DNA of 57,836 bases from Armatimonadota bacterium (GTDB lineage: Bacteria; Armatimonadota; Hebobacteria; GCA-020354555; CP070648), in contig DATLAK010000072.1 of NCBI GenBank assembly GCA_035527535.1, positions 1 to 57,836 of the forward strand, given 5' to 3'. The notes below the pieces were generated by a model. That model was not told the DNA's origin. It saw only the letters and a program-made list of their open reading frames with translations, and ran no database searches. A program made the translations under genes and the position numbers. Position 1 is the stretch's first letter; each line of letters opens with the position of its first letter. Below are positions 3,790 through 38,328 of the stretch, one piece after another.

Positions 3790-3817
3790 GTAGGGGCAAG
3801 GCATGCCTTGCCCCTAC
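3790..3817. repeat. Perfect 28-bp palindrome, GTA-N8-GCATGC-N8-TAC family, copy 1
   Basis: A perfect self-complementary 28-mer with arms GTAGGGGCAAG and CTTGCCCCTAC around the core GCATGC. It lies between trpB2 and hisD. The same sequence recurs at 38261-38288 and, with one mismatch, at 11176-11203. A relative with the same ends and core but different arms is at 21924-21951. Confidence 0.9.
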
Positions 3818-3855
3818 GGATCGTCGTTCACATCAGCGGATGGCGGCGGTTGCCT

Positions 3856-8917: not shown

Positions 8918-8962
8918 GGGCGGCCCGCTGTGGCCGCCCATTCACCCCGACGAGTCGGGGTG
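8918..8962. repeat. Tandem palindromes upstream of dnaE
   Basis: Two hairpins lie side by side: GGGCGGCC/GGCCGCCC (8918-8939) and CACCCCGA-CGAG-TCGGGGTG (8943-8962). The second belongs to a family also seen at 17895-17912, 18171-18190 and 38293-38314. They lie in the 162-base space between glnS and dnaE, within the probable dnaE leader. Confidence 0.8.
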
Positions 8963-9002
8963 CCACATCCGACGTTACCGCGGCGGCCAGACTGGTGGAC
9001 AT

Positions 9003-11175: not shown

Positions 11176-11203
11176 GTAGGGGCAAGGCATGCCTTGCCCG
11201 TAC
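11176..11203. repeat. 28-bp palindrome, GTA-N8-GCATGC-N8-TAC family, copy 2 (one mismatch)
   Basis: Same as copy 1 except that one base of the right arm is changed (CCCG in place of CCCC), which breaks one pair of the palindrome. It lies between divergent genes. Confidence 0.85.
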
Positions 11204-11566
11204 AGGCCGATCCCCATGCCGGCGATGCGCGATGATCCCCCGCCGTGAAGGGTCCCACCGGGGGCGCAGCAGCGGGAGCTTCCGCGCGGCAGAGCTGACG
11301 GCTACCCACTTTGCGCTATCGCGCAGGCGAGACTCTTCGCTAACGCGGCTAGGTCGCGGAGCGACCGCCGTGTCCCTAGGTCAGAGACCGGGATGGCGGC
11401 CTTTAGGCCTAGCCAGCGGCCCTCCGGGCCTAGGCACTCACAGTGACACCGCTCTGGTGGTGTCATTCTGATCGGAGCGTGCTCGCGCGAGTCGCGCGGC
11501 CGCGCGAAGTGAAGAATCTCGCTGCGGCCTGATCGGAAACTGTGTAACTGTCAGGCGGCAGAGGGC

Positions 11567-17235: not shown

Positions 17236-17250
17236 GCGGTGGGAGAGTGC

Positions 17251-17781
17251 ATGGCGGACGACGGTGTGATAGACGGCATTCTGGAGGAGTTGCGGCAGGC
17301 GCTGCTGCCGGTCGGGGAGACGGAACTGGAAGCTCTGGCCGACGCGGTCGCCACCGCCGCCGAGGTCTTCGTGACCGGCCAGGGGCGTTCGGGGCTCATG
17401 GGCGCCGCGTTCGCCACGCGCCTGGCCCAACTGGGCAAGCGCGTCCACGTGGTCGGCTCGCCGACCACCACGGCCGCCGGCCGGGGCGCCGTGCTCATCG
17501 CTTGCTCAGGCTCCGGGCGCACCCGCAGCACCGTCGCCCACGCCCAGCATGCACGCGCCCTCGGCGCCCAAGTGTGGGCCGTCACCGGGGATTCCTCTTC
17601 TCCGCTCGCCGCCGCCGCGGACCGCGTCATCGCCATCCCCGCGGCGCCCTCGATTCAGCCGGGCAGATCGGTCTTCGAGCAGGCGCTGTTGATGTTGTTC
17701 GATACGGTGGTGCTGCGGCTGATGGTCAAGCTGGGGCAGACCGCGGAGCGCATGGACGCCCGCCACGCCAACCTGGAATGA
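17251..17781 (+). CDS. SIS-domain 6-phospho-3-hexuloisomerase-like protein
   Basis: 176 residues forming a single SIS domain: VFVTGQGRSGLMGAAFATRLAQLG, then LIACSGSGRTRSTV. The ending MDARHANLE is typical of HxlB, which converts 3-hexulose-6-phosphate to fructose-6-phosphate in the ribulose monophosphate pathway or in pentose supply. No HxlA (hexulose-phosphate synthase) partner is in the window, so another phosphosugar may be the substrate. The ATG at 17251 has a good ribosome site (GGGAGAG) and is preferred over the GTG at 17239. It follows steA by 15 bases and ends the operon at a GC hairpin (17782-17800). Confidence 0.85.
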   Translation: MADDGVIDGILEELRQALLPVGETELEALADAVATAAEVFVTGQGRSGLMGAAFATRLAQLGKRVHVVGSPTTTAAGRGAVLIACSGSGRTRSTVAHAQHARALGAQVWAVTGDSSSPLAAAADRVIAIPAAPSIQPGRSVFEQALLMLFDTVVLRLMVKLGQTAERMDARHANLE

Positions 17782-17800: not shown

Positions 17801-17894
17801 CGCTTGTGCCGCACTGCGATGACCCCATATCCCACTCTCCCGGGCGCTCCTCACATGTGAAATCTCATGCCGAATGTGGAAAATCTAGGCTAGA

Positions 17895-17912
17895 GCCCCG
17901 AAGTGTCGGGGC
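17895..17912. repeat. CCCCGA-N4-TCGGGG hairpin upstream of the riboswitch
   Basis: GCCCCGA-AGTG-TCGGGGC. It belongs to the family seen at 8943, 18171 and 38293. It may lie in the pilin leader, upstream of the aptamer. Confidence 0.7.
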
Positions 17913-17939
17913 GCGGAACCTTCGCAACCCACGGTGATT

Positions 17940-18030
17940 CCCGAAACGGCAAACTTGGGGAAACCCAGGGGCGCAAAGCCATGGGCCTACGGCGATGATG
18001 ATCGCCACGGCTGCCAGGCTGCCGAAGACC
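17940..18030 (+). ncRNA. Cyclic-di-GMP-I (GEMM-I) riboswitch
   Basis: All hallmarks of the class I c-di-GMP aptamer are present in order: ACGGCAAAC at 17946; a stem (CUUGGG/CCCAGG) capped by a GAAA tetraloop at 17960-17963; CGCAAAGCC at 17972-17980; GGGCCUA after it; a perfect hairpin GGCGAU-GAUG-AUCGCC (17991-18006); and the closing CUGCCAGGCUGCCG, whose UGCCG (18020-18024) pairs with CGGCA (17947-17951). The aptamer lies about 200 bases upstream of prepilin genes. GEMM RNAs commonly control pili and motility genes. A terminator-like hairpin follows at 18098-18131, so regulation is probably by transcription attenuation. Whether c-di-GMP turns the genes on or off cannot be read from the sequence. 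Confidence 0.94.
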
Positions 18031-18097
18031 GTGCGTCGGCGTGCACGGAGCAGACCGCAAGCGTCTCCCGGCAGCCCTGCCGCGGAGGCCGAAGCCA

Positions 18098-18143
18098 CCC
18101 GCTGTCTGCGACGAGCGACGCCGACAGCGGGTTTTGCGTTTTG
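18098..18143 (+). terminator. Intrinsic-terminator-like expression platform of the GEMM-I riboswitch
   Basis: CCCGCTGTC (18098-18106) pairs with GACAGCGGG (18123-18131), followed at once by TTTTGCGTTTTG. It lies between the aptamer and the first prepilin gene, as expected for attenuation. A smaller hairpin, CCGTGC/GCACGG (18029-18048), lies between aptamer and terminator and could take part in switching. Confidence 0.75.
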
Positions 18144-18170: not shown

Positions 18171-18190
18171 CACCCCGAGCGGTCGGGGTG
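18171..18190. repeat. CCCCGA-N4-TCGGGG hairpin before the prepilin gene
   Basis: CACCCCGA-GCGG-TCGGGGTG followed by GCCACAT. The same trailing GCCACAT follows the copy at 8943-8962, so the shared element is larger than the hairpin. Confidence 0.75.
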
Positions 18191-18224
18191 CCACATGGGG
18201 CGGCGCCCCGCATCGGAGGGCACG

Positions 18225-18707
18225 ATGACTGACCACAGAAGCGCAGCAGTCAGGCGCCGGCGCGCAGCCGGGTTCACCCTCATCGAAGTGCTGGTGGCGG
18301 CGATGGTCCTGGGCATCGGCCTGGTGGGGGTCTCGTCCATGGTGTACTACGGGGTGCTTTCCCACCAGAAATCGGCCAACTACACCATCGCCGGCCAGAG
18401 GGCGATGCAGGAGATGGAGCGCATCCGCGACGCCGGCTACCTGGGGGCGGTGGTGGATTACGCCCACTTCCCCTATCCCAACTACCAGATCGTTGACGCG
18501 AACACGGCGCGCTTCACCGTGCCCGAGCTCACCGGCAGCCAGGGCACCATCACCATCAACGAGGACAACGAAGCGCAGGCCGTCAACCCCAGCACCGGTG
18601 CGCCCTACCTGAACATGAAGCGGGTCAGCGTGACCGTAGCCTGGGGCGGGTCGCAGCGGTTGCGCGGGTCCTACAACCTGGCGACCCTGATCTCGAACCG
18701 GCCGTGA
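18225..18707 (+). CDS. Prepilin-like protein (PilV-type)
   Basis: 160 residues with a type III (prepilin) signal: a short basic leader ending AAG, then FTLIEVLVAAMVLGIGLVGVSSMVYYG, where Glu5 of the mature protein is present. The leader is cut by prepilin peptidase at the Gly-Phe bond. The body carries about 115 residues of minor-pilin type. The start is the ATG at 18225 after GGAGGG. Frames extending upstream would run through the riboswitch and its terminator. The next prepilin gene overlaps or closely follows. Minor pseudopilins of this sort initiate type IV pilus or type II secretion fibres. The ATPase, platform protein and peptidase are not in the window. Confidence 0.88.
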   Translation: MTDHRSAAVRRRRAAGFTLIEVLVAAMVLGIGLVGVSSMVYYGVLSHQKSANYTIAGQRAMQEMERIRDAGYLGAVVDYAHFPYPNYQIVDANTARFTVPELTGSQGTITINEDNEAQAVNPSTGAPYLNMKRVSVTVAWGGSQRLRGSYNLATLISNRP

Positions 18708-18718
18708 GGAGCAAGCTG

Positions 18719-19363
18719 ATGAAGTGGATGATCAAGCACGACCAGCGCAGACTCAGCCGCCGGAGCGGCTTCACTTTGCCGGAATTGCTGGTGGCGATGT
18801 TGGTCATGGGGATCCTGGCGTGGACGGTGTCCCTCATCTACTTCTCGGTGCTGGGGGTCTATAACAAGAACCTGTGGCGCCTGCGCCCCTACGACGAGGC
18901 GACCAAGGCGGTCGAGCGCGTCGCCAAGGAAATCAGAGAGGCGATGGTGATTGACACCTACGGCTCGCAGGCGCTGATCGTCATCATGCCGCAGAAGGAC
19001 GCCAGCCGCGACAACGTGTTGGTGGACTCCGGCAGCGGCCTGGCGCTGTCGCAGGGGGACTGGGTGGCGTTCTACCTGTCGGACCAGACGGGCGCCCTCG
19101 ACGCCAGCGGCCACTACCTGTGGAAGGCGGTCAAAGCGCAGGGCACGACCACCTGGGTGCCGCGGGTGATGATCGCCGACAGCATTCATCCCGAGCTCAA
19201 CCCGACCGATCCCGCCACCGGGCTGCCGCGGCCCATGTTCAAGTATTGGCCGGACGAGGTGCGCCTGTACGGGGTGGAGATGTGGATCACCTCCGTGTCG
19301 GAGGTAAGGGGCGAACTCAAGCCGCAGACCGCCCACACCGAGTGCTACCTGCGGAACCTGTGA
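18719..19363 (+). CDS. Prepilin-like protein (PilW-type)
   Basis: 214 residues. A basic leader ends RRSG and is followed by FTLPELLVAMLVMGILAWTVSLIYFSVLG, a prepilin cleavage/membrane segment with Glu5. The mature domain of about 180 residues shows the RPYDEATKAVERVAKEIREA helix seen in PilW/PulJ-like minor pilins. The ATG at 18719 follows GAGGAG at a good distance. A GTG at 18704 overlapping the previous stop by four bases is the alternative. It is co-transcribed with the flanking genes under the c-di-GMP riboswitch. Assignment to a pilus rather than a secretion pseudopilus is open. Confidence 0.86.
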   Translation: MKWMIKHDQRRLSRRSGFTLPELLVAMLVMGILAWTVSLIYFSVLGVYNKNLWRLRPYDEATKAVERVAKEIREAMVIDTYGSQALIVIMPQKDASRDNVLVDSGSGLALSQGDWVAFYLSDQTGALDASGHYLWKAVKAQGTTTWVPRVMIADSIHPELNPTDPATGLPRPMFKYWPDEVRLYGVEMWITSVSEVRGELKPQTAHTECYLRNL

Positions 19364-19437: not shown

Positions 19438-20523
19438 ATGATGACATTACGGCGCCGTGCGCGCAGCGACGAGGGGTTTGCCCTGGTGTCGGCGATGATC
19501 TTCCTGGTGGTGCTGCTGATTGTGGGGGCGAGCCTGGTGCAGACCAGCTCGCAGGAGCTGCAGACCGCCAGCCGGGTGCGCAAGGAGTCGCGCGCCCTCA
19601 ACCTGGCGGAGGCGGGCATTGATTACGCTGCGTGGAAGCTGTACAACGCGCCCACCACCGCGCTGCCGACGACGTGGACGCGCAGCGACCTGCCGACGGG
19701 CACATTCACCGTCGCCGCCACCCAGTACGTGGGCGCGACGGGGCCGGTGCCCAACACGGTGGTGCTGCAATCCACCGGCGTATCACAGGGGTGGAACTCC
19801 CAGCTCAAGGTGGTGGGGCGCTTCCTGCAGAACCCGGGCACCAATAACCCGATCTTCGATAACGCGCTGTTCTCCGACGCCGAGCTGCGCGTCGGCGGCA
19901 CGGCGGACGTCAAGGGCAGCGTCCACGCGAATGCGAACATCAAGTTCAACGGTTCGCCAAAGGTGGACGGCGACGTGTCGGCGGTGGGATCCATCAGCGA
20001 GGGGGGCACGGTCACCGGAACTCGCACGCCGAACGCGCCGCAGATGCCGATGCCCACCATTGATCTCGCGTACTACCGCAGCATCGCCACCACCGTCATC
20101 AACGGCAATTACAACTTCAACGGCAGCGCGACCCTCGATGGCGTAACATACATTGACGGCAACTGCTCCATCAACGCCACCTTCAGCGGCACGGGCGTGA
20201 TCGTGTGCAGCGGCGAGGTCACGGTCAACGGTTCCGCCAGGCTCGAGAGCTTAGAGACGGACGAGTTGGCGATCGTCGCCGCCGGCAGCGTGCGCATCAA
20301 CGGCAACTGCCGCATCGAGGGCTACGTCTATACCCACAACCTGGACATCCCCGCCGGCTTCACCGGCAACGGCACCGCTGACATCCTGGGTGGCGTCGCC
20401 GCCGACGTCATCAATGTCAACGGCACCTTGCTCCTCGAGTACCGCGAGCCGACCTTGCCCTTGCCCGGCGATTCCTCCGCACCCCCCCAGTTTGCCTCCA
20501 TTTCCTGGCGCCGGGTGCGGTGA
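19438..20523 (+). CDS. PilX-like pilus assembly protein with repetitive beta domain
   Basis: 361 residues. The N-terminus (DEGFALVSAMIFLVVLLIVGASLVQTSSQELQTA) resembles PilX-type minor pilins rather than a classical FTLIE prepilin. After about residue 145 the chain becomes a run of short hydrophobic/Gly/Asn repeats (VGGTADVKGSVHANANIKFNG and VKVDGDVSAVGSISEG-like units; INGNYNFNGSATLDG), like the beta-helical polymer-forming fold of bactofilins or DUF7305-type domains. A good ribosome site (AAGGAGA) precedes two adjacent ATGs. It is the third gene behind the riboswitch. A role as a fibre tip or surface-polymer component is inference. Confidence 0.8.
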   Translation: MMTLRRRARSDEGFALVSAMIFLVVLLIVGASLVQTSSQELQTASRVRKESRALNLAEAGIDYAAWKLYNAPTTALPTTWTRSDLPTGTFTVAATQYVGATGPVPNTVVLQSTGVSQGWNSQLKVVGRFLQNPGTNNPIFDNALFSDAELRVGGTADVKGSVHANANIKFNGSPKVDGDVSAVGSISEGGTVTGTRTPNAPQMPMPTIDLAYYRSIATTVINGNYNFNGSATLDGVTYIDGNCSINATFSGTGVIVCSGEVTVNGSARLESLETDELAIVAAGSVRINGNCRIEGYVYTHNLDIPAGFTGNGTADILGGVAADVINVNGTLLLEYREPTLPLPGDSSAPPQFASISWRRVR

Positions 20524-20562
20524 CATAAGGGCGATCCCAGCAGGAGGTGGGGCCCGGATAAT

Positions 20563-20590
20563 CTGCGGGAGGGCGCCGGCCCTCCCGCAG
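20563..20590 (+). terminator. Hairpin terminator between convergent genes
   Basis: Perfect 11-bp stem CTGCGGGAGGG/CCCTCCCGCAG with loop CGCCGG, followed by GGCTTTGTCT. It lies between the PilX-like gene and the oppositely directed aldolase gene. Confidence 0.65.
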
Positions 20591-20705
20591 GGCTTTGTCT
20601 GGTGGAAGCGCTGGCGGTCGGTTGAATCGTCGGCGGCGCGCCTCAGCAGTTGGTCGCGGGCGGAGTCGTCCCCTGCCGGCGCTGCGGGCGCCCATGCGGA
20701 ATCGG

Positions 20706-38260: not shown

Positions 38261-38288
38261 GTAGGGGCAAGGCATGCCTTGCCCCTAC
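38261..38288. repeat. Perfect 28-bp palindrome, GTA-N8-GCATGC-N8-TAC family, copy 3
   Basis: Identical to copy 1 (3790-3817). It lies between the NIL-ferredoxin and UPF0280 genes, four bases before another hairpin (38293-38314). Confidence 0.9.
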
Positions 38289-38292
38289 GTTC

Positions 38293-38314
38293 GCGCCCCG
38301 ACGAGTCGGGGCGC
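38293..38314. repeat. CCCCGA-N4-TCGGGG hairpin before UPF0280
   Basis: GCGCCCCGA-CGAG-TCGGGGCGC, perfect 9-bp arms. Together with the 28-bp palindrome it fills most of the 93-base spacer. Confidence 0.8.
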
Positions 38315-38328
38315 GCCCAGGTCATCAC

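Follow-up and report, generated by a model that had tools for sequence, protein, structure and literature searches.

The window analyzed here is a stretch of 57,836 nucleotides, contig C72 of the source genome (an assembly of 3.24 Mb in 192 contigs), and contains a three-gene pilus cassette together with its leader, all on the forward strand. The cassette encodes a PilV-like minor prepilin of 160 residues (18225–18707; N_methyl 32 bits, cutoff 21.2), a second minor prepilin of 214 residues (18719–19363; N_methyl 29.7 bits, same cutoff), and a 361-residue protein (19438–20523) in which PilX_N (PF14341, 39.0 bits) and Bactofilin (PF04519, 33.7 bits) both exceed their cutoffs, in agreement with the original prediction of two minor prepilins and a PilX-like protein with a bactofilin-like domain. 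The first protein scores 38.6 bits with the PilV model TIGR02523, below its cutoff of 52.2, and is assigned to the general N_methyl class only. In a structure model of the PilX-bactofilin protein (mean pLDDT 61) a long N-terminal helix is followed by a beta-solenoid, suggesting a probable beta-solenoid pilus-tip or surface protein; the best PDB matches to the model are beta-solenoid ice-binding proteins, which show the class of fold and not the function, and the match to bactofilin is weak. The nearest named relatives of this protein are from Candidatus Hebobacteria, a class of Armatimonadota, and we sampled 14 genomes of the class, nine of which carry a total of 29 c-di-GMP-I aptamers, as well as 15 comparison leaders from other Armatimonadota classes. 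A Shine-Dalgarno sequence precedes the first cassette gene, and a terminator-like hairpin with a 13-bp stem lies 3' of the operon (20562–20591), although one such hairpin was found where 1.4 are expected by chance. The gene upstream of the leader (17239–17781) scores as a 6-phospho-3-hexuloisomerase (HxlB, 174.8 bits, cutoff 160) and adjoins SteA.

The leader contains a c-di-GMP-I (GEMM-I) aptamer at 17938–18026. The original prediction had placed such an aptamer and its terminator at 17940–18143 and proposed a search with the RF01051 covariance model, which scores the site at 79.7 bits (gathering score 35, E 4.4e-14); the match is full length (model positions 1–87) and, the related RF03167 score given below aside, is the sole Rfam match in the window. 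The closing helix P1 is formed by CACGGT (17930–17935) and ACCGTG (18028–18033). The aptamer had been described as showing every GEMM-I hallmark, and this is correct for the aptamer and its closing helix, although the conserved A of GGACGC is a G here (GGGGCGC). The residues contacting the ligand in the Vibrio Vc2 structure are G20, A47, and C92 (Vc2 numbering), and in the RF01051 alignment their equivalents are present in the window within CGGC (G20), CGCAAA (A47), and GCTGCC (C92). They are intact in all four c-di-GMP-I aptamers of the source genome, the window copy included, and CGCAAA and a G at position 20 are found in 29/29 aptamers of the class. The genome encodes eight GGDEF domains, and c-di-GMP is therefore the expected ligand.

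It is very improbable that the aptamer binds another cyclic dinucleotide such as cGAMP, or that it represents the GGC variant distinguished by Rfam. The RF03167 model (c-di-GMP-I-GGC) does score above its cutoff in the window (65.7 bits against 59) and is the top-ranked family in cmscan for the three aptamers elsewhere in the genome, but its consensus has a G at the A47 position (CGCGAA) where the window has an A, and none of the 29 class aptamers departs from CGCAAA. Riboswitches for cGAMP (GEMM-Ib) have an A at position 20, which is a G in the window. Intact G20, A47, and C92 thus argue against both the GGC variant and the cGAMP type. We considered whether the G in GGGGCGC is the A47G change of the GGC variant and rejected this, as the RF03167 alignment places A47 at the next A (CGCAAA). 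Filing the aptamers of this genome under RF03167 would be a model artefact, the matches reflecting other features that the models share. We also note that RF03167 outranks RF01051 for class aptamers with an intact A47 (L002–L004, L041–L064), which automatic annotation would misname.

An intrinsic terminator at 18098–18142 separates the aptamer from the first gene, with a perfect 9-bp stem (CCCGCTGTC at 18098–18106 pairing with GACAGCGGG at 18123–18131), a 16-nt loop, and the tail TTTTGCGTTTT. When the 200 nt 3' of the aptamer are shuffled 1000 times with dinucleotides preserved, no comparable hairpin arises, and a hairpin is present at this place in 5/5 orthologs, so that the terminator is both beyond chance and conserved. 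A hairpin-plus-T-run terminator had been predicted ahead of the first prepilin gene, of which the hairpin is confirmed; the U-tract is interrupted. A simple hairpin scan missed the terminator because its loop limit was 8. Two further elements may belong to the platform. A candidate antiterminator strand, GTCGGCGT (18035–18042), is an inverted repeat (8/8) of ACGCCGAC at 18118–18125, which comprises terminator loop and the start of the 3' arm, and this partner is the one predicted by folding. A candidate anti-aptamer strand, CGGCAGCC (18069–18076), is complementary to the 3' strand of the aptamer (GGCTGCCG, 18017–18024), and partners of the CGGYAGCC type are also present in three relatives (G001, G003, and G010). 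Taken by itself, this match does not reach significance when compared with shuffles in GC-rich DNA (p 0.03–0.2 for most orthologs), and we have dropped it as proof of a switch.

Upstream of the aptamer the leader has a promoter-like element, CATGTGA and TGGAA with a 16-nt spacer (17854–17883), which resembles a class consensus of CATCTCA-N17-TGGAAYA; the -35-like first block of the window copy has diverged (CATGTGA, N16). Every class aptamer (29/29) has a TGGAA-type box 26–105 nt upstream, which reads CGGAA in two cases, whereas TGGAAHA occurs in 0.7% of random 120-nt windows. The strict pattern TCTCA-N17-TGGAAYA has 30 matches in 11 class genomes against none for a reversed-pattern control; 11 of the 30 are at aptamer leaders, and the others include the major pilin operon (five), shorter sigma-GGDEF genes (three), flagellar flgB (two), and signalling genes. 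Per genome the class has about 3 matches against 0 in the control, whereas elsewhere the figures are about 0.6 and 0.2, near chance. We looked for a sigma-70 consensus promoter and found none, and transcription would start at a promoter type common to the main pilin operon. In other classes, a different arrangement is seen in which a sigma-28-like promoter, CTAAAG-N15-CCGATAAT, lies upstream of the aptamers (L066, L070, L074–L080), followed in many cases by a small, FlgM-like first gene.

The promoter-like element is followed by a leader hairpin, CCCCGAAGTGTCGGGG (17896–17911), in a boxB-like position between the promoter and the boxA-like site discussed below. The z value is -1.97 for the window leader, and about 12 leaders of the class reach values between -3 and -5.4 at the same position. 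The aptamer had been described as bracketed by dispersed hairpins, and this applies to the downstream side only: 17896–17911 is not repeated, was rejected as a dispersed element, and occupies the conserved leader-hairpin position, whereas the palindrome CACCCCGA-N4-TCGGGGTGCCACAT at 18171–18196, between the terminator and the Shine-Dalgarno sequence, has further copies at 8943–8968 (88%) and, more weakly, at 38294–38319 (77%). The looser palindrome pattern is no commoner in the window than chance (12 against 10 expected), and the 18171–18196 palindrome is probably unrelated to the riboswitch. A separate, near-identical 29-bp palindromic repeat, GTAGGGGCAAGGCATGCCTTGCCCCTACG, is present at 3790–3818, 11176–11204, and 38261–38289.

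Between the leader hairpin and P1 is a boxA-like site, GAACCTTCGCAAC (17916–17928). The rRNA leaders of the class carry boxA (ACCTTGAAAAC, TCCTTGAAAAC, and ACCTTGACAAC), that of the source genome's own family being GCACCTTGACAAC, and a narrow matrix built from those three sequences only matches the window copy with p 0.017. This matrix finds a boxA match 15–31 nt 5' of the aptamer in 17/29 class leaders (p<=0.05 each), with all five orthologous leaders occupied at this position, but in 0/15 leaders from other classes of the phylum. The combined p is about 2e-17, a value inflated by the relatedness of the sequences. With a broader matrix that includes the boxA sequences of E. coli, B. subtilis, and M. 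tuberculosis, about 19/29 class leaders match and the window copy has p 0.10; control windows 150–450 nt upstream are not significant. The G010 genome has three copies of the exact core KTTCTTTGANRAC, and G003 and G011 have one each, all of them within aptamer leaders. In several leaders the copy is identical to the general boxA core GTTCTTTGAAAAC and follows a strong hairpin; a hairpin of this kind is present 5' of boxA in about 12 leaders. A site matching the rRNA boxA of the class is thus present at a fixed position in most class leaders, and the window copy matches less well with the broader matrix. A boxA situated before the aptamer, as in most leaders, would load NusB/S10, and this complex would protect the long leader, which is not translated.

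There is a real possibility, a little short of probable, that the block is instead a conserved single-stranded spacer, or an entry to the aptamer in the P1 region, and not a NusB/S10 site. Such a role would fit the differences at several positions between leader copies and the rRNA boxA of the same genome, and the absence of the block from about a third of class leaders. It accounts less well for the placing of the block at a near-fixed position by a matrix derived from rRNA alone, with the small if inflated combined p and no match outside the class, or for those copies that equal GTTCTTTGAAAAC and come after a strong hairpin.

The order of aptamer, terminator, PilV, prepilin, and PilX genes recurs in five relatives, which supports the original prediction of a riboswitch and terminator ahead of a two-prepilin/PilX-bactofilin operon. 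One of these (G001) is from the same family as the source genome, with cassette proteins 74–77% identical, and the other four (G003, G010, G007, and G012) are from another family in which identities are 23–29%. A hairpin and T-run precede the first gene in all five, and the stems differ between the families yet still pair. None of the three sampled genomes of family f2, also in this class, has an RF01051-type aptamer, and one Hebobacteria contig without an aptamer (L134) nonetheless has the cassette and a TGTGGAATGAG box, indicating that riboswitch control has been gained or lost and is not obligate.

We think it likely that the leader is a c-di-GMP-I riboswitch that sets terminator read-through into the three-gene pilus cassette and acts as an ON switch. 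In the ligand-free state, the downstream CGGCAGCC would pair with the aptamer 3' strand GGCUGCCG, and the terminator would form. With c-di-GMP bound, the aptamer would keep its own 3' strand, and a freed or upstream strand would pair with the terminator loop and 3' arm before the hairpin closes. High c-di-GMP would then yield more minor pilins and solenoid tip protein, jointly with a pilus machine headed by a separate riboswitch. The direction is suggested by folding, which makes ON reasonably probable but leaves it unsettled for the window copy. When folding is modeled at the point of terminator-loop emergence, the loop is paired upstream over 12.1 of 19 nt in the bound state against 1.6 in the free state in G001, and over 8.6 of 15 nt against 0 in G007, and in free-state models the aptamer strand is captured downstream in 5/6 orthologs. 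In the window copy, however, folding gives the antiterminator with and without ligand alike. Full-length equilibrium folding of the orthologs forms the terminator in both states, so that any effect would have to be kinetic.

It is c-di-GMP that usually raises pili and surface proteins, which fits poorly with the same riboswitch working as an OFF switch, the ligand stabilizing the aptamer and favoring the terminator so that the cassette is made at low c-di-GMP. The bound-state pairing at loop emergence in G001 and G007 and the downstream capture in five of six free-state models also speak against this direction, and we regard it as unlikely, even though the terminator forms in the bound state at equilibrium. 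Both ON and OFF switches are known in class I, and in C. difficile each of the seven functional members of that class is OFF (PMC6366702). More improbable still is a relic, decayed or constitutive, that hardly controls the cassette. The ligand-independent antiterminator in the window model would fit such a relic, and non-responsive class I switches such as Bc1 exist (PMC11218506), but the covariance score is strong, the pocket is intact, and the aptamer, terminator, and gene order have been kept across a large divergence.

The cassette had been described as lacking a major pilin and an ATPase, which is true locally but not of the genome as a whole. A second aptamer (C97:25096–25170) heads a same-strand series of genes encoding DUF4388, PilM, PilN, PilO, PilP, PilQ, PilB, PilT, and PilC, with a largest gap of a few hundred bases at most; the names from PilN to PilC come from sequence and position, those of PilB and PilT backed by a further search. 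Next to PilC is a sigma factor whose C-terminal domain is of the GGDEF type, and then comes the major pilin. Of the remaining two aptamers of the genome, one precedes a gene for a surface protein with DUF11 and the other a gene for a secreted protein with a PKD domain.

The sigma-GGDEF gene (C97:13596–15230, L235 in G000, with orthologs L236–L244) has the same neighbors in the class genomes that we read, where PilC is followed by a sigma factor of about 440–560 residues, and often then by a promoter and the major pilin. Its sigma part is nearest to the SigB/F/G group, below the cutoff for that group. Pfam recognizes GGDEF in the C-terminal domain of 12/12 members tested (58.1 bits for the source-genome domain), and by profile the domain matches solved cyclases in the PDB with E 3e-29. 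The catalytic GG(D/E)EF motif is replaced by YERTSF, MGRTRF, and others, and by its sequence the domain is not an active cyclase, whereas the R and D of RxxD, at the spacing of an I-site, are two of the 12 columns that are invariant across the phylum. We sampled 81 Armatimonadota genomes, of which most contain full-length relatives, and we found no description of such a sigma-GGDEF fusion in the literature searched.

The sigma factor may bind c-di-GMP, or may read the promoters described above, as its motif and position suggest. An attempt to tie the promoter box to the sigma factor by distribution was rejected, as the sigma factor is phylum-wide and the motif is enriched in this class only, and the link between them consequently rests on gene position. 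A scheme that we consider rather unlikely, and offer tentatively, is that c-di-GMP is read twice: the I-site sigma-GGDEF factor would direct RNA polymerase to CATCTCA-N17-TGGAAYA promoters, the leaders would load a boxA complex, and the c-di-GMP-I riboswitch would then act, so that a sigma factor sensing c-di-GMP would work in series with riboswitches for the same ligand. A second, shorter sigma-GGDEF protein (L181, L182, and L200, in G007, G011, and G012) is encoded by a gene that has a TCTCA-N17-TGGAAYA promoter, and autoregulation is possible.

There are several known systems with which the leader can be compared. One is Cdi-2-4 of C. difficile, before pilA1, in which c-di-GMP acts on type IV pilus genes through leader termination, as predicted for the window, and which is ON with ligand (PMC6366702); it is a class II switch before the major pilin, whereas the window has a class I aptamer before minor prepilins and PilX-bactofilin. 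The RF01051 switches Vc2, Cd1, and Bc2 are similar to the window in aptamer sequence, structure, and pocket residues, and its terminator platform resembles those of Bc1, Bc2, and Cd1, but unlike Vc2, Cd1, and Bc2 its leader adds the class-specific promoter box, hairpin, and boxA-like site. No report of a c-di-GMP-I aptamer paired with these three elements was found in the literature searched. The Geobacter GEMM-Ib cGAMP switches and RF03167 share the scaffold, and have pilus and surface genes among their targets, although by alignment the pocket in the window is of the c-di-GMP type (G20, A47). The boxA of rRNA leaders (NusB-S10) has counterparts in mRNA leaders, those of suhB and a Citrobacter toxin gene (PMC5725501), and the class leaders are similar in having a core near the class's own rRNA boxA and often a hairpin 5' of it, but differ in that the putative boxA is directly 5' of a riboswitch aptamer; we found no report of boxA in a riboswitch leader in the literature searched, the coverage of which was incomplete. 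We also note tandem c-di-GMP-I aptamers about 20–30 nt apart elsewhere (L072 and L073 in G023; G032:C49; G045:C3), and a GEMM-I aptamer directly 3' of a PilX-like gene on a Ca. Aerophobetes contig (L159:5398–5482).

We regard the riboswitch as a true addition to a known class, one that probably controls a pilus cassette, and c-di-GMP riboswitches before pilus genes are already known. In this case a poorly known class of bacteria conserves the leader as a whole, from the promoter box and hairpin, in many leaders also a boxA of the rRNA type, to the aptamer and terminator, and this combination is unusual. If the boxA is functional, these leaders would be a natural example of rRNA-type antitermination set before a riboswitch makes its choice, and one would have to ask how a polymerase modified in this way can respond to the riboswitch terminator. 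The GGDEF sigma factor, with its degenerate catalytic motif and its I-site motif, is present in much of the Armatimonadota and is a candidate c-di-GMP-binding sigma factor that can be tested directly.
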